NCBI GenBank assembly: GCA_030706745.1
Contig: JAUZNX010000003.1
Span: 1-64,000, forward strand
Direction of reading: 5' to 3'
DNA from: Bacteroidota bacterium
Lineage (GTDB): Bacteria > Bacteroidota > Ignavibacteria > Palsa-1295
DNA length: 64,000 bases
Shown: positions 2 through 42,952 of the stretch, one piece after another
How positions within the stretch are numbered: position 1 is the first letter of the stretch
How the letters are laid out: each line of letters opens with the position of its first letter
Translations under genes and position numbers: made by a program
The notes under the pieces: generated by a model
What the model saw: the letters and a program-made list of their open reading frames with translations, nothing else
The model's database searches: none
Told to the model about the DNA's origin: nothing

Positions 2-1069
2 AGCCCATGGTCTTACAGATGGCCGTCGCTCGAAAACTCATACATCTCCTCTATGCGATGGAAAAGCATCAACGGGCATATGACCCTAAATATCAAAAAT
101 CACAACGGAACGGAGGAACGAACTAATACGGTATCTCCGGACTCAACCGGGTTCTACGATCTTCGGCAGATTATCACCGATGGTTGCGGCTCCGTCATGA
201 CTTATCAATGGACGGGGACGAATCCGCCTAAATTGTTTATCTCAACAGATCGAGGGGACTCTTGGATGGCCGCTGATTCGAGTATCCCTAATTATTATGG
301 TTCTTTTGCTCGTGACAATCAATGCCACCTCATTTTGTGGAATAGGTATGGGATCTTCGAATCGTCGAACCATGGTGTGCATTGGGACAAACGCTATGAG
401 GGAGCAATGGATACCGAGATTCAAGCCGCCGCATTTGATAGCAAGCAAAGGCTATTTGCATTGACCGCGAATGGCAATCTATTCCGCTCCTCTGATTATG
501 GTCGCTCTTGGCAGTCAGTTTCAAGCGTGAACGAGGGTGGCCAAAAATATCTTTGGATTGATCCGAAGGATGATCTCTACACCCTGAGCGACATCGGGGC
601 TGGCCTTCTTCTCTCAACCGATGGTGGGAATACCTGGTCGGTCGATACGCTGGGAATCGGCAACTCCTCCGCTAGTGGGATGGCATTCTCAAAAGATGGA
701 TACGCCTATGCTGTAACTCGAAGGGGTCTTGGTCTTATGAGATCACCACTTCTGGGCTTGAGCGTTAAGGGAAATGGCGAAGTACCAATGAACTCTACTG
801 ATGTTCAGTCTTTTCCCAACCCCTTCACCCGCTCGACCACCATTCACTTCGCGCTGCCGAAGCCGGAGTATGTGACAATTGCTGTGTTTGATGCCGAAGG
901 CCGCGAAGTCGCGCGGCTGGCGAGCAGGGAGTTCGGTGTGGGCGCGCATGATGTGACGTTCGATCGCAGCGAAGGCAATACGCATGGCGCACTTCCGGCG
1001 GGTGTCTATTTCTACCGCATCACTGCTGGCGGAGAAGCGCAAACGCAAGCGATGATCGCCGAGCCGTAG
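2..1069 (+). CDS. Secreted beta-propeller (BNR-like) protein with type IX sorting tail, 5' end outside window
   Basis: The reading frame is open to the left edge, so the gene very likely starts before the window; the first internal ATG is at 53. The protein carries repeated BNR/sialidase-type turns (LFISTDRGDSW, SSDYGRSW, LSTDGGNTW), which in this family build a secreted beta-propeller. The last roughly 85 residues form a FlgD/T9SS-type C-terminal domain: FPNPFTRSTTIHFALP, then a strand VTIAVFDAEGREVARL and the end LPAGVYFYRITAGG. In Bacteroidota such tails send proteins through the type IX secretion system. Substrate or ligand is unknown. No partner gene is visible beside it. Confidence 0.8.
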   Translation, partial: SPWSYRWPSLENSYISSMRWKSINGHMTLNIKNHNGTEERTNTVSPDSTGFYDLRQIITDGCGSVMTYQWTGTNPPKLFISTDRGDSWMAADSSIPNYYGSFARDNQCHLILWNRYGIFESSNHGVHWDKRYEGAMDTEIQAAAFDSKQRLFALTANGNLFRSSDYGRSWQSVSSVNEGGQKYLWIDPKDDLYTLSDIGAGLLLSTDGGNTWSVDTLGIGNSSASGMAFSKDGYAYAVTRRGLGLMRSPLLGLSVKGNGEVPMNSTDVQSFPNPFTRSTTIHFALPKPEYVTIAVFDAEGREVARLASREFGVGAHDVTFDRSEGNTHGALPAGVYFYRITAGGEAQTQAMIAEP

Positions 1070-16705: not shown

Positions 16706-16713
16706 TATATTTG
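16706..16713 (+). promoter_or_regulatory. -7 promoter element of the cobalamin operon
   Basis: TATATTTG fits TAnnTTTG. It sits about 45 bp before the conserved core of the B12 riboswitch, where a promoter for the leader is expected, and is identical to the elements at 4640 and 60941. Confidence 0.6.
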
Positions 16714-16754
16714 CAGCGAAGATGTGGTGCCTCGCATAAAAGTATGAGCGATCA

Positions 16755-16985
16755 TGCTGTGAGGTGAAAAGGGAATCTCGTGATGCTCGGAGCAATCGTC
16801 CGGGCCAATTCGAGAGCTGCCCCGCAACTGTAACTCCGTAAAAGTCCACTGATCGGTCGAAACCGATTGGGAAGGCAAAGGGAGTTATGAGGATGGAGGA
16901 TGAATCCTGAGATCATCGATGATCTCACAACATTCATCATTCATCATTCATAATTTCTCCGGGAGAAGCCAGGAGACCTGCCACG
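16755..16985 (+). promoter_or_regulatory. Cobalamin (B12) riboswitch
   Basis: Conserved blocks of the adenosylcobalamin-type riboswitch appear in order: GAGGTGAAAAGGGAATCTCG, GAGCTGCCCCGCAACTGTAA, CCACTG, GATTGGGAAGGC, and the terminal AAGCCAGGAGACCTGCC ending near 16983. By family, cobalamin binding folds the leader and blocks expression of uptake genes. Between the GGGAAGG block and the final block lies an unusually long insert (about 16886-16960) made of 7-bp repeats and an 18-bp perfect palindrome. The riboswitch is followed by a TonB-dependent receptor gene, the expected regulated gene. Confidence 0.93.
16886..16957. repeat. Heptamer repeat insert inside the riboswitch
   Basis: The right part is CATTCAT three times followed by AATTTCT; the left part TGAGGATGGAGGATGAAT is a degenerate inverted copy. 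Between them GAGATCATCGATGATCTC (16909-16926) is a perfect palindrome. Together they would form a long hairpin extending one riboswitch stem. Confidence 0.75.
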
Positions 16986-17144
16986 TCAGAAATAGATCAT
17001 CTGCCTTCGTGGGAGAGGCAACGGTCGTACCAGCTCCGGCATTCGCGCGCGTTCGCGCCTTTTTCAATCCGGTTTCCGCTCGTACCGCTGTCCGCTCCCG
17101 CGTAGGTCCATCGGCATCGACCACGATGCAGGGAGATTCATTTA

Positions 17145-33996: not shown

Positions 33997-34323
33997 TTAA
34001 CGGTGCAGGATCGAATCCAACACTGTGGTATCGAGTCCGCCGGTGCCGCTATCAGGTGGCGGCGGCGGGGGCGGTGGTGGTGGCGGAGGAGGCGGTGGGT
34101 TCTTTATACCGCTATCCGGTGGCGGCGGCGGAGGTGGTTGTCTATGGTGACCAGTGTCAACCGGAGGTCTCCGGCGGATAGTGGTATCCTTACCATGCTT
34201 TATACCGCCGCCAGTGCCGCCTGTTCCGCCAGTGCCAGGACCAGTCGGGTTAAAGCAGCTCGCCACTCCAAAGCCTAACGCGGCTATGAACGATAGTACT
34301 GCAAATTGCTTGATTCGCTTCAT
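33997..34323 (-). CDS. Polyproline lipoprotein
   Basis: A 108-residue protein with signal MKRIKQFAVLSFIAALGFGV and lipobox ASC (Cys23). The mature part is a glycine-threonine run, a basic patch KHGKDTTIRRRPP, seven prolines, DSGIKN, fifteen prolines, and DSGTGGLDTTVLDSILHR. Such a stiff chain could span the periplasm or stick out from the surface. The two proline blocks share flanking DNA (CCGCTATC then GGTGGCGGCGGCG), so the tract grew by duplication. It has its own promoter and terminator. The function is unknown. Translation should need EF-P. Confidence 0.75.
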   Translation of the reverse strand: MKRIKQFAVLSFIAALGFGVASCFNPTGPGTGGTGGTGGGIKHGKDTTIRRRPPVDTGHHRQPPPPPPPDSGIKNPPPPPPPPPPPPPPPDSGTGGLDTTVLDSILHR

Positions 34324-34420
34324 GTACGTATTGATTAGAATTATCCTGAATGTGACCGTTTCAAAAACCCTCACAGCCATGTCCGGAGATATAACTCCTC
34401 AAGGACAAGCTTATCACAGA

Positions 34421-34428: not shown

Positions 34429-34680
34429 AAATAAGTTCTGGCAATTAGAAAGCGACAGCCATTCTATTGGAAAAGCGGCATGTACATGAGTTGTTGTCAA
34501 CATCCCAAATACTTCTGGTCGGCCAATTCCCACAGAAACCCAATCAAACGTTTGTAACGCAAATGCCCATTCCACGCCAAGTAGCCTAGGAGTAATAAGC
34601 ACTTGAAGAGTCGCATTGCGGCTTCTGCTCAGCAAGTCCTCGAAATCAATCCTGTTATAAACCGTTTGCAGGAGTGTTAC

Positions 34681-35448
34681 ATGGACAGGAGCAAGAAAAC
34701 GTTGGGCGAATTGGCGATACCAATTGGTGCGATCAATGCGCGTGCGTATTCCGAAAAGCGAGGAAATAGGGCGTTGCGCGAGCAACCACCCGAAATCGCT
34801 TCGGATCGTGCGGCGTCTGCGCTTGCCGGGTCCATAGCAGATGCTGAGGTCACGTCAACGAGCCAACTGACTCGTGCCGAGACCAAAGCTGCCCTCGAAA
34901 AACTGGAAGATGCCGATCTGCTGCGGCGATTTCAGTCGGGCGAAGAACACGCGTTCTATGTGCTCTTCGAGCGTCGGCATAAGGAGATTTACATGCATTG
35001 CTATCGCATGTGTAATCGAGATGGGGAGAAGGCCAACGACGCTTTTCAGGATACTTTTATGAAGGTATTCCAGCGCAAAGACCTTTTTACGGATGCGACG
35101 AATGGTCGCGCTTGGCTATACAGGATTGCGACGAACACCTGCCTGAATGCTCATCGCTATGACCGCCGGCATCCAACCGAAGGGTTGGAGGACAATGTGA
35201 CTTCGATCGACCCGAGGTATCAACCGGATTTTGGAACCGAGCAAAGCTCGCTCCGCGAGGCGCTCGAATCTGCTGTTGCCAAGCTCCCCGAAGAGCTTCG
35301 ACAGCCTTTTATTCTTCGCGAACTGGACGAACTCAGCTATGAAGATGTAGCCGAGCAATTGGGCATCACGATCGCGGCCGCAAGGCAACGGATCTACCGC
35401 GCGAAAATTTTGCTCCGCGAAGAACTTGAAGATTTAGTAAACGGATAG
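34681..35448 (+). CDS. ECF-type RNA polymerase sigma factor
   Basis: A 255-residue sigma-70-family protein. Region 2 spans LLRRFQSGEEHAFYVLFERR to DTFMKVFQ and GRAWLYRIATNTCLNAHR; region 4 spans VAKLPEELRQPFILRELDE and AEQLGITIAAARQRIYRAKI (helix-turn-helix). The first 75 residues are an extra, probably flexible extension. The start at 34681 is fixed by GCAGGAG with 8 nt spacing; an upstream TTG frame (34603) has none. Five bp separate it from the anti-sigma-like barrel gene, the usual operon position of its inhibitor. Confidence 0.9.
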   Translation: MDRSKKTLGELAIPIGAINARAYSEKRGNRALREQPPEIASDRAASALAGSIADAEVTSTSQLTRAETKAALEKLEDADLLRRFQSGEEHAFYVLFERRHKEIYMHCYRMCNRDGEKANDAFQDTFMKVFQRKDLFTDATNGRAWLYRIATNTCLNAHRYDRRHPTEGLEDNVTSIDPRYQPDFGTEQSSLREALESAVAKLPEELRQPFILRELDELSYEDVAEQLGITIAAARQRIYRAKILLREELEDLVNG

Positions 35449-35453
35449 CCGTC

Positions 35454-37022
35454 ATGGAACACTCGAATAAAATGGATGGCGCATTGCCTGGCGGGATACT
35501 GCCGAGTGGAATGTCGCAAGCCGAAAAGGACAAGCTCGAAGAACGCATCATGGCGTACTTCGATGGCGCATTGGATAAGGCGTCGTCGAATCGGCTCCTC
35601 AGCGACGTCTCGGCAAATGCGGAGGCGCGCGCGCTATTTCACAGTCACGAAGTGCTCAATCGTGTGATTGCTGCCGCGCGTGTGCCACTCGAAGCGCCCC
35701 TGGAAGTCAAACGGTCTATCGTCGAGCGCATCCCCAGTTTGGTCGCGTTCATACCCGGTCTACTCGGAACATCCCAGATGCTCCCGGTCTTGACACAGAG
35801 CGCGAATCCGTTTCTCGCATTCCTCAGCAAGATACCATTGTCAACCGCTATCTCCATCGGTACATCTGCCGTGGTGCTGACGACTGCTGGCGTGATTGTG
35901 AAGAACAAGCTCGATGAAAGTGCTGCCAACGAAGCGAGATCGCATGTTGCAGTTGTCCGGCAACATGAAGCACCTCCGGCGAGCGCGATGCCTTATGCAC
36001 CATTAGCGACGGCGAATACTGACGCTGCTCACGCACCATCGATGAATGGAGCAACTCCTCACATCGCTACTGAGAATGCAGCATCTACTGGTTCGACGGC
36101 TGCAAAAATTGCACGTACCAGAGTAGCAAATAATAGGGCAGCGACTTCTAATCAATCTTTCGCTGTCGCGAATAGGGCCTTTCGAGCCGATGAAGCCGCG
36201 AATTCCAACAATAGAATTCAGGCGAATGACAGTCGTCATAGTCAACCGGTAGTAACGAGAACTCCAAGCGCCCTTCCCGAGCAATCGAAAGCAGATGCTC
36301 CAACGCCCCCGGATAATACTCCTGCACTCACTGCGGTCGCGCCATCTAGTGTGCCGGCGGTTGCAGCGAACATTCCGGTTTCGCGTCCTTCTGTCATTTC
36401 GCCAATGCCACTCGATTTTGGTGACGGGATTGTTTTACGACCTTTCGTCTCCTCTGGAGTTGGGATTGCGTCCTGGTCCGCTGGGCCAACACTTGTCGAA
36501 GGTGCGAAGCACCGAAGCGCAGGAAGCAAACTCATCCAGGACTTTCGAGCCGGGTTCGATCTTGCAGTCAACGACGTGCTCTCACTGCGATTCGAGGGAG
36601 GCCAGAGCCAATTCGCGCATCAGGTCTTGCATGGCGATAATCTCTCTGGCAACGGAGAATTGCCAACGTATGCCATCTATACCGCCGTTACCCTCGATCA
36701 GGCATATTGGACCGGGATCGGTCTATCATACTCGATTGCTGTCGGTCAGGTGCCACTACAGTTCAGTCTTGATGGAGGCCCGGTATGGCTGCATCCGATT
36801 GGATGGACTGCAGGTCTTGGCCTTTCGACCGAGTTCGATTTAGGCTCTAGGCTCGCACTGCGACCTGGCATGACCTTCAACCTTACTGGTACGGGCCGCG
36901 ATGGGATGCGGAACGCCGACGCCAATCCCGCATCAAGTATTTTCCTGAATCGTGAGTTCAACGAATCGAGGATGATCTACTCCTCGCTTGGACTTAACAT
37001 CGGCTTTATGTTCCGATTCTGA
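35454..37022 (+). CDS. Anti-sigma-like membrane protein fused to an outer-membrane barrel-like domain
   Basis: A 522-residue protein. Residues 26-75 (LEERIMAYFDGALDKASSNR and following) resemble the cytosolic helical domain of anti-sigma factors, without zinc-binding Cys/His. One transmembrane helix follows at about 129-149 (LSTAISIGTSAVVLTTAGVI). Residues 150-310 are a long Ala/Asn/Pro-rich linker. The last 210 residues have strands such as GIVLRPFVSSGVGIASW, LSLRFEGGQSQFAHQVL and a terminal LGLNIGFMFRF, the pattern of a small outer-membrane barrel. It would thus cross the whole envelope. It directly follows the sigma gene and overlaps the next lipoprotein by 1 bp. Confidence 0.72.
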   Translation: MEHSNKMDGALPGGILPSGMSQAEKDKLEERIMAYFDGALDKASSNRLLSDVSANAEARALFHSHEVLNRVIAAARVPLEAPLEVKRSIVERIPSLVAFIPGLLGTSQMLPVLTQSANPFLAFLSKIPLSTAISIGTSAVVLTTAGVIVKNKLDESAANEARSHVAVVRQHEAPPASAMPYAPLATANTDAAHAPSMNGATPHIATENAASTGSTAAKIARTRVANNRAATSNQSFAVANRAFRADEAANSNNRIQANDSRHSQPVVTRTPSALPEQSKADAPTPPDNTPALTAVAPSSVPAVAANIPVSRPSVISPMPLDFGDGIVLRPFVSSGVGIASWSAGPTLVEGAKHRSAGSKLIQDFRAGFDLAVNDVLSLRFEGGQSQFAHQVLHGDNLSGNGELPTYAIYTAVTLDQAYWTGIGLSYSIAVGQVPLQFSLDGGPVWLHPIGWTAGLGLSTEFDLGSRLALRPGMTFNLTGTGRDGMRNADANPASSIFLNREFNESRMIYSSLGLNIGFMFRF

Positions 37023-38515
37023 TGAAATCCTTACTTACCATATTTCTCCTCGGCCTAGCACTCGCTGGCTGCACCACGCTAACCGCGCCGGTGCCGGCGA
37101 CGCTTCCGTCCGACCTGACAAGCTACTTCTGGCCGAATAAGGATACCTCCTTCAACTATATCGCTAGCACTGGTAGTGGTCATGCGATTACGCTAACGTC
37201 AGGTGGGGCGATTTATGATAAGGACCTCGGAACAGATTCGACAGTATTACTCAATGTATCCCTTGGCAATGCTCAAGTGAACATTTCCGGTCTGTCCGCA
37301 GCGGACTTACTCGGTCTCGATGCGTCCTTGAGCATCGTAAGTGATACCGCCCCGAACTTCGGTAGTAATCCATTGGCCCTCAGCTCGATAGCTTCAATTG
37401 GCAAGACATTATATGCTTCGAGCGGCAATAACATATACCAATATTATCCACATGGGGATTCTTTGCATGCGGTATGGCAAGCGCCGTTCTCGGGTATTCG
37501 CCTGATTGCGGGACGGGCATCGAATCTTTATGCATTCCAGATCGGTGGTAATGGGATTGCAATAAAGCAAAAGGGCGCCAATTGGACGGCTTCTGTCCCG
37601 GCGCCGGGAAATATCAACTGTTTTACTCCAGGCGATGAGTTTGGGCACGATCATGTCCACTTTTGGATCGCAACTGGCCCCCGCCTCTATCGTTATTCCC
37701 AATCCGGCTGGGCACCGGTCGGGTTCGTCTTCTCAGCGCCAATTACGGCCATGGACGAAGTTTTTGACGATGACAATTTGCTAGTTGGGTTAAGTAACGG
37801 CGCGCTGTTTAATGTACATTCTGACGGTCATCGTGATTCGTTAGGAATGCTGCCGCCACCAATCACTGCCATTGAAAACGGGTTCGTAGGCACTTCGAAT
37901 GGCTTGTTTACTTTCTATGGACCCAGCCTCACGCCCGTACGGAATGGCGCGATTACGGCTCTTCTCGGATCAGGCGGCGGTGGGGTTTTTGCCGGGCTTA
38001 GCAATGATAGTGTCTTTTGGTATTTCAATAATGCTCAGATCGACTTTGGGACTCCCGCAAGTGTTCCCGTGAGCCAATTTAGTGATACGGGGCTTACACC
38101 ACCTCTTTTTGCGCTGGCCGGTTCGCAACTCTACGAGCATCAAAAGGATAATAGCTGGGTGCTACGAGGTCAGGGTACGCCAACCGCTTCAAAATGGACT
38201 CCGGGCACCTTCACGATGTTGAAAGATGTCCCGGATTGGCGCGCGGCATATGTGGAAGACTTTTCGTCCAACGACATCCGAGGCTACGCATATTGGGCAA
38301 GCGTTGTGCTTGGCACGCAGGGGAGCGCGAACATTCAGCTTGATGGTCTTGCATACAACGATGTGATTGCTGTACAATACACACCGATGATAAATGGTGT
38401 TGTCGAAAACATATCCGCGCCAACATATCTGATCTACTATCAGCGCGGCCGGGGTCCTATTCGAATCGAGCGAACCGAGGCCGGGGTTAAGACCATTACC
38501 CGGCTGGTCCAGTAA
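37022..38515 (+). CDS. Lipoprotein of the sigma/anti-sigma operon
   Basis: A 497-residue lipoprotein (MKSLLTIFLLGLALAGCTTL; lipobox LAGC). The middle consists of short repeating turns like a propeller: SSIASIGKTLYASSGNNIYQ, RLIAGRASNLYAF, DDNLLVGLSNGALFNV, GSGGGGVFAGLSNDSVFWYF. The C-terminal 90 residues (VPDWRAAYVEDFSSNDIRG and after) look like another beta domain. ATG overlaps the preceding TGA (TGATG), so it is coupled to the barrel fusion. It could be the outer partner of the signalling device; no family is recognised. Confidence 0.72.
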   Translation: MKSLLTIFLLGLALAGCTTLTAPVPATLPSDLTSYFWPNKDTSFNYIASTGSGHAITLTSGGAIYDKDLGTDSTVLLNVSLGNAQVNISGLSAADLLGLDASLSIVSDTAPNFGSNPLALSSIASIGKTLYASSGNNIYQYYPHGDSLHAVWQAPFSGIRLIAGRASNLYAFQIGGNGIAIKQKGANWTASVPAPGNINCFTPGDEFGHDHVHFWIATGPRLYRYSQSGWAPVGFVFSAPITAMDEVFDDDNLLVGLSNGALFNVHSDGHRDSLGMLPPPITAIENGFVGTSNGLFTFYGPSLTPVRNGAITALLGSGGGGVFAGLSNDSVFWYFNNAQIDFGTPASVPVSQFSDTGLTPPLFALAGSQLYEHQKDNSWVLRGQGTPTASKWTPGTFTMLKDVPDWRAAYVEDFSSNDIRGYAYWASVVLGTQGSANIQLDGLAYNDVIAVQYTPMINGVVENISAPTYLIYYQRGRGPIRIERTEAGVKTITRLVQ

Positions 38516-39810: not shown

Positions 39811-39914
39811 GGATGAGGGATGAAGGATGAGAGATGAAGGTTCTGCTATTGTGAGCTTCAAAAAATCTACCTGGATTATTGTATTTGCCTTCATCCTTCA
39901 TCCCTTATCCTCCA
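39811..39914. repeat. Heptamer repeat pair around and inside a signal peptide
   Basis: Left: AAGGATG, AGGGATG, AAGGATG, AGAGATG in tandem (39808-39837). Right, inverted: CCTTCAT, CCTTCAT, CCCTTAT, CCTCCAT (39888-39915). The left array surrounds the M1 start codon; the right array encodes the signal-peptide core FILHPLSSIL. Confidence 0.88.
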
Positions 39915-42900
39915 TACTTGCCGGACAAAAATACTGGCAGCAGCACGTCTCCTACGACATCCGTGTCACGCTGATCGATAGCATCCACACGTTGGATGGC
40001 TCGCTTTCGGTCATCTATTCCAACAACTCACCGGACACGCTCCGAGAGGTCTACTTTCATCTTTATGCCAACGCCTTCCAGCCAGGTAGCTTGATGGATG
40101 AGCGTGCGCACGCAATCCACTCCGCGCCTATATACAACCGCATCAGTTCTCTGCCGGAAAGGGAGCAAGGCCGATATTGGATCGGCGCGATGATGGCCGA
40201 TAGCTTGACCGCCAAATACGCGATCACCGGTACTGTTATGCGCGTGGCTCTTCCAAGGCCGCTGGCTTCAGGTGGATCGGTCACCATCGTCTTTCCATTT
40301 CGAGAACAGGTGCCGCGACAAATCCGTAGGAGTGGATGGATGTCTCGAGAGGGTGTGCAGTATTCCATGTCCCAATGGTATCCCAAGATCGCCGAATATG
40401 ACAACGAAGGCTGGCACCGGCAGGAGTATGTCGCGCGCGAGTTCTACGGCGTTTGGGGCGATTTTAATGTCGAGATAACGGCGCCTTCGCGATTCGTCAT
40501 CGGCGCCACCGGTGAGTGTACAAATCCGCGTGATGTCGGGCATGGGTATGACCGAATCGCTGGTGGTGAGCGGGAAGGCATTCTCTTCCCAACAGAGGCA
40601 GCGCCTTCCATCACTACGTGGCACTTCCACGCATCGTCGGTCCATGATTTTGCCTGGGTTGCCGACGACGATTACGTTCACGAATGGTCGACCTGGCAGG
40701 ACACGATCATGTTGCATGCGTTTTATAAGCGTCGCTACGCGCCGTTTTGGCATGATGCAATCCGATACTCACGTCATGCGCTTGAGACATACAGCGAGTT
40801 GTTTGGTCCATATGCGTATCGCAACTTCTCCTGCACAATGGCCGGTGATGGCGGAATGGAATACCCGCAGCTAATCATGATTACCGGTTACAGACCCACA
40901 CCGGGCTCCATGGCTGGTGTGATAGCCCATGAGACGGCGCATCAATGGTTCTACGGCATGCTCGGCTCGAACGAAACGCGCGAAGCCTTCATGGATGAGG
41001 GCTTTACGTCGTGGGCCACTACCGTCGCGATGAATCGGTTATGGGGTGACCATCAAATTCCACCCGGACAGGAGCGGTCGTGGCTCGACGGGTTCATTCC
41101 GAAGTTCAGTAACAAACGGGATAATTATCGCGGGTATCAAAGCCTTGCAAGCGAAGGCTTTGAAGAACCACTCGATATTCCGCATGACTGGTTCCGCGAG
41201 GACCTAACCGCAGGTCAGGTCTACGGCAAGACGCAAGCGATTCTCTCGATGCTTCAATACACGCTGGGTGATGAGGTCTTTGCTCGTGGCATGAAAAGAT
41301 ACTATAATGAGTGGCACTTCAAGCATCCACACTTGGTCGATTTCAAAAGAGTGATGGAAAACGTGGCCCACACCGATCTGGACTGGTTCTTCGATGAGTG
41401 GTTCCGTACAACGCGAACAGTTGACTATGAGGCGATGGACGTATCTTCAGAGGTGGTTGCCGAAGGATACAACAACACACTCAGGCTTCGCAACAACAAT
41501 CTGGCCGTCATGCCGATCGACCTGCTTCTGCATTATGATGACGGATCCGCCGGCGCTACGACCATTCCCCTGGTGACAAACAAAGACCTTGTTTATCACA
41601 AGAGCGGCGTCGAAATGTTTCTGCCAGGCTGGGATTGGGTCTCGCCAAACTATGAGGCGAGCTTAGTCACACCAAAGCGCATCTCATGGTTCGAAATCGA
41701 TACCTCCTGGCGCCTGCAGGACCTGCACTGGCTGAACAATTACAGCGCGCGCTCGGCCCTTTGGACCCCACCAGGCGAGTGGGCAGTCTGGAAGCAGCTA
41801 TTCATCTATCCGCCGATCGACAAGTACTATTCCGTGGTCCGACCGATTCTTTGGTGGGACTCGATTTCGAAATTCAATGCCGGAGTCGGGGCAAAATTCG
41901 GAATGAACAACAGCTTCTCCGGCGACGCGAAGTTGATCTACAAATCGGATCCGCTTCGCGATACCACTCCTTTGTGGTACGATCATTTGGACGGCGCACT
42001 GGACTATCACATACCAGTGGATTGGCTGGGCCGCCTCACAACCTTCGGAGTCAGGGCGAGTAAGATGGATGGCATCGGCACGGTGGGCGCTGAACTGACG
42101 AAGGTTTTTCGACCCGAATATTTGCGGCTTGGTCCAACGCACACTGGTTCGCTCTACCTCGAATCACAAACGTTGCTGAATCCGTCCTATCCTGTTTATC
42201 ATTCCGAGTGGTCGGCGGCTGGCAGTGAGGTTGCTGGGCTTACCTACTCCGTCGTGAGCGAGGATGCGACCGAGCGGTTCGATCTCAAAGCGGAAAGCGC
42301 TGTGTGGGGAAGCTCATTCGAGCGGGCGAAAGTGAAGTTCGAGGACGATTTCAGTCTGGGCGGGAATTTCGGCAGTCGCATACGGCTGACTGCTGGAACG
42401 GCGACAGCTTCAACGCCCGTGGAGCGAACATTCTGGCTTGCGCGCGCAAGCAACTATGAGGACAACCAAAGCTCGTTTTTCCGGGCGGTGACGGATGTGA
42501 GTCCTGCGCTCGATCGAAAAGCCTCGGCGTTTGTCGAGGGTGGGGCGGGCGTCCGCGGCTATGCAATCGACGAGGTTGCGGACACGGCGCATAGCCTGCG
42601 TGGTACGCAAATGTTTGGTGTAAGCGATGACATCACGCTGCCGAATGTGCTCCGCAATCTCTGGAGCCCACTCGCTACATTAGGTTTTGGGCTGTTTGTG
42701 GACGCCGGGTGGGTGGGCGAGCCAACCCTCGACTTCTGGCATGACGTCCGCACGAATCTTCGAACAGATGCGGGAGCAACCGTTTCGGTCAATCTGCGCG
42801 ATTGGTTGCCATACCAGCTTCGCGGTGTAGCAGATGAATATGCGCCAGTTCCATTGATCAAATTGGTCCTGCCACTGTATGAAAATCTTCCTGCTGATGG

Positions 42901-42952
42901 GAAGAAGCCCGTCGCGTTCCGCTGGGGGCTCGCAATCGGAGCAAGCCTGTAA
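39827..42952 (+). CDS. Exported M1-family zinc aminopeptidase
   Basis: A 1041-residue peptidase. GGMEYPQLIMI is the M1 substrate motif; zinc ligands are His368, His372 (HETAH) and Glu391 (FMDEGF), at the exact HExxH-x18-E spacing. N-terminus: WIIVFAFILHPLSSILAGQ is the signal peptide; ATG 39827 or GTG 39851 (MSFKKSTWIIV) may be the start, the latter giving a cleaner signal. The C-terminal 350 residues hold further beta-rich segments ending LVLPLYENLPADGKKPVAF and RWGLAIGASL, similar to outer-membrane barrel ends, an addition beyond the M1 core. It probably degrades peptides at the cell envelope. Confidence 0.88.
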   Translation: MRDEGSAIVSFKKSTWIIVFAFILHPLSSILAGQKYWQQHVSYDIRVTLIDSIHTLDGSLSVIYSNNSPDTLREVYFHLYANAFQPGSLMDERAHAIHSAPIYNRISSLPEREQGRYWIGAMMADSLTAKYAITGTVMRVALPRPLASGGSVTIVFPFREQVPRQIRRSGWMSREGVQYSMSQWYPKIAEYDNEGWHRQEYVAREFYGVWGDFNVEITAPSRFVIGATGECTNPRDVGHGYDRIAGGEREGILFPTEAAPSITTWHFHASSVHDFAWVADDDYVHEWSTWQDTIMLHAFYKRRYAPFWHDAIRYSRHALETYSELFGPYAYRNFSCTMAGDGGMEYPQLIMITGYRPTPGSMAGVIAHETAHQWFYGMLGSNETREAFMDEGFTSWATTVAMNRLWGDHQIPPGQERSWLDGFIPKFSNKRDNYRGYQSLASEGFEEPLDIPHDWFREDLTAGQVYGKTQAILSMLQYTLGDEVFARGMKRYYNEWHFKHPHLVDFKRVMENVAHTDLDWFFDEWFRTTRTVDYEAMDVSSEVVAEGYNNTLRLRNNNLAVMPIDLLLHYDDGSAGATTIPLVTNKDLVYHKSGVEMFLPGWDWVSPNYEASLVTPKRISWFEIDTSWRLQDLHWLNNYSARSALWTPPGEWAVWKQLFIYPPIDKYYSVVRPILWWDSISKFNAGVGAKFGMNNSFSGDAKLIYKSDPLRDTTPLWYDHLDGALDYHIPVDWLGRLTTFGVRASKMDGIGTVGAELTKVFRPEYLRLGPTHTGSLYLESQTLLNPSYPVYHSEWSAAGSEVAGLTYSVVSEDATERFDLKAESAVWGSSFERAKVKFEDDFSLGGNFGSRIRLTAGTATASTPVERTFWLARASNYEDNQSSFFRAVTDVSPALDRKASAFVEGGAGVRGYAIDEVADTAHSLRGTQMFGVSDDITLPNVLRNLWSPLATLGFGLFVDAGWVGEPTLDFWHDVRTNLRTDAGATVSVNLRDWLPYQLRGVADEYAPVPLIKLVLPLYENLPADGKKPVAFRWGLAIGASL

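Follow-up and report, generated by a model that had tools for sequence, protein, structure and literature searches.

A candidate anti-sigma factor spanning both membranes, with a propeller lipoprotein partner, in a Kapaibacteria-type Bacteroidota genome

The stretch analyzed here (the window; 64,000 nucleotides, positions 1 to 64,000 of contig JAUZNX010000003.1, assembly GCA_030706745.1) is part of the 3.81 Mb draft genome of a soil bacterium, a Bacteroidota member of the Kapaibacteria type. A three-gene operon at 34681-38515 encodes an extracytoplasmic function (ECF) sigma factor, an anti-sigma/barrel protein and a propeller lipoprotein. The first two genes are separated by 5 bases and the last two overlap at TGATG. 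An initial annotation, made from the sequence alone, read the second gene product as an anti-sigma-like helix domain, one membrane helix, a flexible linker and a C-terminal barrel in a single chain. AlphaFold modeling and hydropathy analysis bear out this layout, and Pfam matches and a lipobox do the same for the flanking sigma and lipoprotein genes. The operon comprises the following features:

34681..35448, + strand: ECF sigma factor gene (255 amino acids from the ATG at 34681; Pfam Sigma70_r2, 1e-11, and Sigma70_r4_2, 6e-16)
35454..37022, + strand: predicted dual-membrane anti-sigma factor gene (522 amino acids; probable start Met20 at 35511)
35517..35750, + strand: predicted cytoplasmic anti-sigma domain, residues 22-99, helical and without cysteines (AlphaFold, homologue profiles)
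35844..35900, + strand: predicted single transmembrane helix (best 19-residue window 131-149, Kyte-Doolittle 1.81)
35943..36419, + strand: predicted disordered periplasmic tether, residues 164-322, rich in Ala, Pro, Ser, Thr and Asn (predicted local distance difference test, pLDDT, mostly 30-41)
36426..37019, + strand: predicted C-terminal 8-stranded outer-membrane beta barrel, residues 325-522, ending ...GFMFRF (AlphaFold)
37022..38515, + strand: lipoprotein gene (497 amino acids; lipobox LAGC with Cys17), coupled by TGATG at 37020-37024
37364..38179, + strand: predicted seven-bladed propeller, lipoprotein residues 115-386 (AlphaFold mean pLDDT 82)

Translation of the anti-sigma/barrel protein probably starts at Met20 (35511), because residue 20 is a methionine in 7/7 orthologous sequences and the residues before it are unconserved. 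In the AlphaFold model, built from 20 sequences, the N-terminal helical domain has a pLDDT >90 over residues 21-70 and lower values beyond. Scanned over its full length against Pfam and NCBIfam, the window's protein gave no match, and its N-terminal domain alone gave profile matches short of significance. Among 15 homologous N-terminal domains, zf-HC2 matched eight (best 4.7e-7), the anti-sigma-E profile PRK13920 nine (best 3.7e-5) and RseA_N three (0.0068). When the N-terminal profile was compared with the PDB, RseA (1or7 chain C, E 0.021) was the only credible relative of solved structure; the full-protein profile retrieved only chance matches among PDB sequences, such as EspP, which were rejected. 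As judged from these homologue profiles, the domain is of the anti-sigma kind, as the initial annotation had supposed, and more closely of the RseA/ZAS type. The core of the aligned N-terminal domains lacks cysteine, so that the zinc ligands H-x3-C-x2-C are missing. Because the cysteines of the zinc-binding subclass are absent, the domain is assigned to the zinc-free kind.

A hydrophobic helix at about residues 129-151 lies within a long modeled helix (129-163), and modeled disorder extends over residues 159-322, giving a tether of about 159 residues. Amid the unconserved tether, P290 (36321-36323), about 35 residues N-terminal of the barrel, is aligned in 20/20 homologues. The barrel itself is modeled with a pLDDT mostly >90 and a dip at loop 345-353. 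Its best structural match is NspA (Z 14.8, root mean square deviation 2.5 over 140 residues), accompanied by OmpA (Z 14.0-14.6), PagL (13.5), OprF (13.3) and also OmpW (Foldseek, VIA-align). The modeled domain is thus of the OmpA/NspA-type 8-stranded barrel fold; a soluble fold was not obtained.

This layout supports the suggestion that the outer membrane and a sigma factor are connected by a single chain, an idea already published for Bacteroides and Phocaeicola (PMC13088901; PMC9308784). According to the work on Bacteroides thetaiotaomicron, as given in the 2026 paper (Pardue et al. 2024, 2026; PMC13088901), the dual membrane-spanning anti-sigma (Dma) proteins Dma1 and Dma2, found with Das1 and Das2, comprise a sigma-binding domain, a membrane helix, a disordered tether and a C-terminal barrel, next to an ECF21 sigma gene. 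Dma2 sits in a three-gene operon, and dma2 deletion frees Das2 in Bacteroides (PMC13088901). In Phocaeicola vulgatus, the anti-sigma factor of the M0N98_03760/03761 pair is predicted to bridge the periplasm and to carry an outer-membrane barrel (Evans et al. 2022, PMC9308784); an envelope-damaging toxin triggers the Phocaeicola homologue, and the sigma regulon becomes active when this homologue is lost (PMC9308784). The present family shares with Dma1/Dma2 the domain order, the sigma gene directly upstream and a similar tether length. Further likenesses are the third gene of the Dma2-type operon (DUF4943), whose product has a lipoprotein-like N-terminus, and a second Dma-type locus with a divergent lipoprotein gene beside the sigma gene.

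The architecture recurs, as a search of the family for sigma genes followed by it revealed. Six genus-level orthologues of the anti-sigma/barrel protein are conserved at 34-54% identity, and the named orthologous loci come from ‘Candidatus Kapaibacterium sp.’ and from metagenome-assembled genomes labeled Ignavibacteriae or Bacteroidetes; in NCBI taxonomy, Kapaibacterium belongs to the phylum Bacteroidota, class Eximiradiia. These six relatives retain the operon as far as their contigs reach, with the same two genes, for an aminotransferase and an M1 peptidase, behind it, and their sigma factors are 56-70% identical. Profile searches reached further families of the class, and we inspected in detail 41 homologous modules from at least seven of its families. 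An ECF sigma gene lies directly upstream in 40/41 modules, the remaining module beginning at a contig end. Given the 34-54% identity of the orthologues and the 40/41 sigma neighbors, the arrangement is more than chance. The genome studied here holds at least six modules, located on contigs 1, 2, 3 and 17, with two on contig 16.

An ECF sigma factor, an inner-membrane anti-sigma factor and an outer-membrane component make up the general plan of FecI/FecR-like cell-surface signaling, which the locus fits. A separate outer-membrane receptor would then do the sensing and the barrel would be a passive anchor. The operon holds no TonB-dependent receptor gene, its lipoprotein gene being followed downstream by the aminotransferase and then the M1 peptidase genes, and a FecR domain was matched in none of the 28 homologues scanned. 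Both results speak against such signaling, which we consider improbable.

Bacteroidia Dma-type loci were retrieved through DUF4943, and their barrels match OMP_b-brl_2. Across both families the tether is at least 109 residues long in 38/38 proteins measured (109-270 in the Kapaibacteria-type family vs 114-143 in the Bacteroidia Dma-type), a floor that is expected if the tether must cross the periplasm. One alternative is invariable cleavage in the periplasm once the chain has been exported; this would yield a conventional outer-membrane protein from the barrel and a conventional inner-membrane anti-sigma factor from the N-terminal part, and the fusion would only keep their amounts equal. The poor conservation of the linker sequence is compatible with this, and the invariantly aligned P290 could mark a processing site. 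However, a cut product needs no minimal tether, whereas the floor of about 109 residues is found in two families without detectable relation, and the anti-sigma domain and barrel stay joined in 41/41 modules; routine cleavage is therefore an unlikely explanation, though the least unlikely of the three considered. The length floor, together with the predicted dual anchoring, could also suit a mechanical or spacing sensor, in which changes in periplasm width or wall attachment stretch the tether and pull on the anti-sigma domain. Because the tethers of paralogues range from the floor of 109 up to 270 residues, the tension would differ greatly between copies; no experimental precedent was found either, and we regard this explanation as very improbable.

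The propeller lipoprotein gene starts within the stop codon of the anti-sigma/barrel gene. Many WD40-type propellers match its modeled propeller at Z about 25, and the top Foldseek matches include the propeller sensor domains of BT4673 and the heparin-sensing BT4663, which belong to Bacteroides hybrid two-component systems. The modeled fold fits a ligand-binding co-sensor, but a propeller fold in common is no proof of a common function. The lipoprotein probably has its anchor at the outer membrane and serves there as a subunit that binds a ligand or partners the barrel. Across the modules, a next gene follows within 150 bases in 35/41, and 31 of those 35 have a lipobox; the products fall into two size classes, one of about 500-550 residues, which comprises the propellers, and a smaller one of about 200-330 residues. 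Many of these third-gene lipoproteins, despite their differing sizes, carry a Y-F-W-like aromatic motif 12-25 residues past the lipid-bearing cysteine (window 37070-37130). It was counted in 22/27 of them and in 4/25 control lipoproteins, in a test designed post hoc and with orthologues counted, and for both reasons the count serves as a lead only. Perhaps the motif is a docking element.

Upstream of the operon, three further features were located:

34653..34679, + strand: promoter-like motif TGTTATAAACC-N12-GTTA, immediately 5' of the sigma gene
34392..34418, - strand: weaker motif copy TGTGATAAGCT-N12-GTTA, facing the divergent lipoprotein gene
33997..34323, - strand: small Pro/Gly-rich lipoprotein gene, divergent from the sigma gene (open reading frame; N-terminus with CFNPTGPG)

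The regions upstream of the sigma genes, when aligned, contain one conserved element, TGTTACAAACC-N12-GTTA. It occupies the same position in 7/7 orthologues, the seventh on a separate contig, and scanning the window at ≤3 mismatches gave two matches, one of them the copy at 34653..34679. The opposite-facing copy matches almost perfectly in two orthologues and partly in another; the window's own copy is degenerate (three mismatches, first element). At ≤1 mismatch, all but three matches in seven genomes fall at these loci. Because such matches are nearly confined to them, the predicted regulon consists of the operon and the divergent lipoprotein gene: the same sigma factor is predicted to drive its own operon (self-activation) as well as that gene, from putative promoters. 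A genome-wide regulon search allowing two mismatches gave counts not clearly above the backward control in most genomes, and for this reason we claim no distant targets; the motif is absent from the paralogous modules. The annotated sigma ATG lies two bases after GTTA, with a TTG or GTG 18-21 bases further on in 6/6 aligned orthologues. Since the motif overlaps the annotated ATG in at least four orthologues, a start at the downstream TTG/GTG is suggested, and the true sigma start here may be TTG 34702. The CFNPTGPG N-terminus of the divergent lipoprotein is kept at the orthologous loci of several genus members, and the protein has long Gly and Pro runs.

As for the neighborhood, the M1-family peptidase gene beside the operon (39827-42952, +; 1041 residues) is conserved across the genus, and the long C-terminal region of its product reads as a putative barrel. 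A cobalamin riboswitch was detected elsewhere in the window (16708-16999, +; 75.8 bits).

We interpret the operon as a switch built of a sigma factor and an anti-sigma factor that spans both membranes, a reading to which we assign a probability of roughly 0.72. The N-terminal domain would keep the ECF sigma factor bound at the inner membrane, which the helix would cross; the disordered tether would traverse the periplasm, and the barrel would be inserted in the outer membrane. When the barrel is unassembled or disturbed, or when the propeller lipoprotein binds its ligand, the sigma factor would be released, most likely via proteolysis of the anti-sigma domain. Once freed, it would act at the TGTTACAAACC-N12-GTTA promoter to transcribe the operon that encodes it as well as the divergent lipoprotein gene. 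The genome encodes Omp85-family outer-membrane assembly proteins (6 matches) and site-2-type proteases of family M50 (2 matches), machinery that such a pathway would use. Beside the domain layout, operon, recurrence and conserved motif, which were established computationally, we infer for the present family sigma binding, outer-membrane insertion, the signal, proteolysis and promoter function.

Several points weigh against this interpretation. The model of the anti-sigma/barrel protein has a predicted template modeling score of only 0.42 and draws on a 20-sequence alignment, although a low score is to be expected when a flexible linker joins two domains. Profile comparison with Dma by hhalign gave probabilities of 0.3% for the anti-sigma domain, 11.7% over 27 columns for the barrel and 4.6% for the whole protein. 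With no detectable anti-sigma homology and a 27-column barrel trace, the transfer of mechanism from Dma rests on layout. The third gene of the Dma2 operon, DUF4943, encodes a protein other than a propeller, which leaves the role of the propeller without precedent.

The two families differ in other respects as well. The anti-sigma domain is about 75 residues long and of the RseA/zf-HC2 kind here, whereas that of Dma is about 45 residues and profile-unrelated; a propeller lipoprotein partner and at least six paralogous modules in one genome also set the present family apart. BLASTP against a Dma2-type protein gave an E-value of 0.92. By hhalign, the Kapaibacteria-type set compared with other families of its class gave 98.9% and 98.1%. 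In a tree of 54 sigma factors, with NF058625 sigma factors as the outgroup, the Kapaibacteria-type and class clade (97/97) stands apart from the Bacteroidia Das clade (100/94), and a joint clade of both sets excluding the outgroup was not rejected (p 0.47). The NF058625 loci had been considered as Dma loci and were rejected, as small anti-sigma factors and unrelated proteins lie downstream and no barrel fusions were found. By layout, tether length and operon style, the present family is a Dma-like variant and not a proven Dma member.

Among other known systems, the Phocaeicola pair and EcfO of B. fragilis (Evans et al. 2022; Ndamukong et al. 2013) likewise have an anti-sigma factor that is predicted to bridge the periplasm and to carry an outer-membrane barrel, and the Phocaeicola pair is induced by envelope stress (PMC9308784). 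They differ in belonging to the Bacteroidales lineage and in having NigD lipoproteins among the induced genes, and are set beside the present family by description. With RseA/sigma-E of Proteobacteria, the family shares the kind of N-terminal anti-sigma domain (1or7 chain C and RseA_N matches). RseA has a short periplasmic domain and depends on the separate sensors DegS and RseB, whereas here an outer-membrane barrel is carried in the same chain. It is a tentative and rather doubtful proposition that dual-membrane anti-sigma factors have two separate origins in Bacteroidota. In Bacteroidia, the sigma-binding domain would be short and unique; in Kapaibacteria-type lineages, an RseA-like domain would have been joined to a different barrel, and the design would there have expanded into many parallel outer-membrane sensors, each with a lipoprotein co-sensor of its own.

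Most Gram-negative envelope sensors use several proteins to relay an outer-membrane signal to the chromosome. Here, a single chain may perform this relay. The dual-membrane anti-sigma design itself is not new, and the present family appears to be a separate, many-copied version with a different sigma-binding end and a lipoprotein partner. Earlier descriptions of the design were confined to Bacteroidia, and the version now found in another class of the phylum has no detectable sequence relation to the Bacteroidia one; the statement of the Dma authors that it occurs ‘solely among Bacteroidota’ (PMC13088901) remains valid. The occurrence in a further class, together with at least six copies in one genome and a lipoprotein partner for most, suggests a broad signaling strategy. 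The features common to both versions, namely the domain order, a tether of at least 109 residues and the lipoprotein neighbors, are probably what the mechanism needs.

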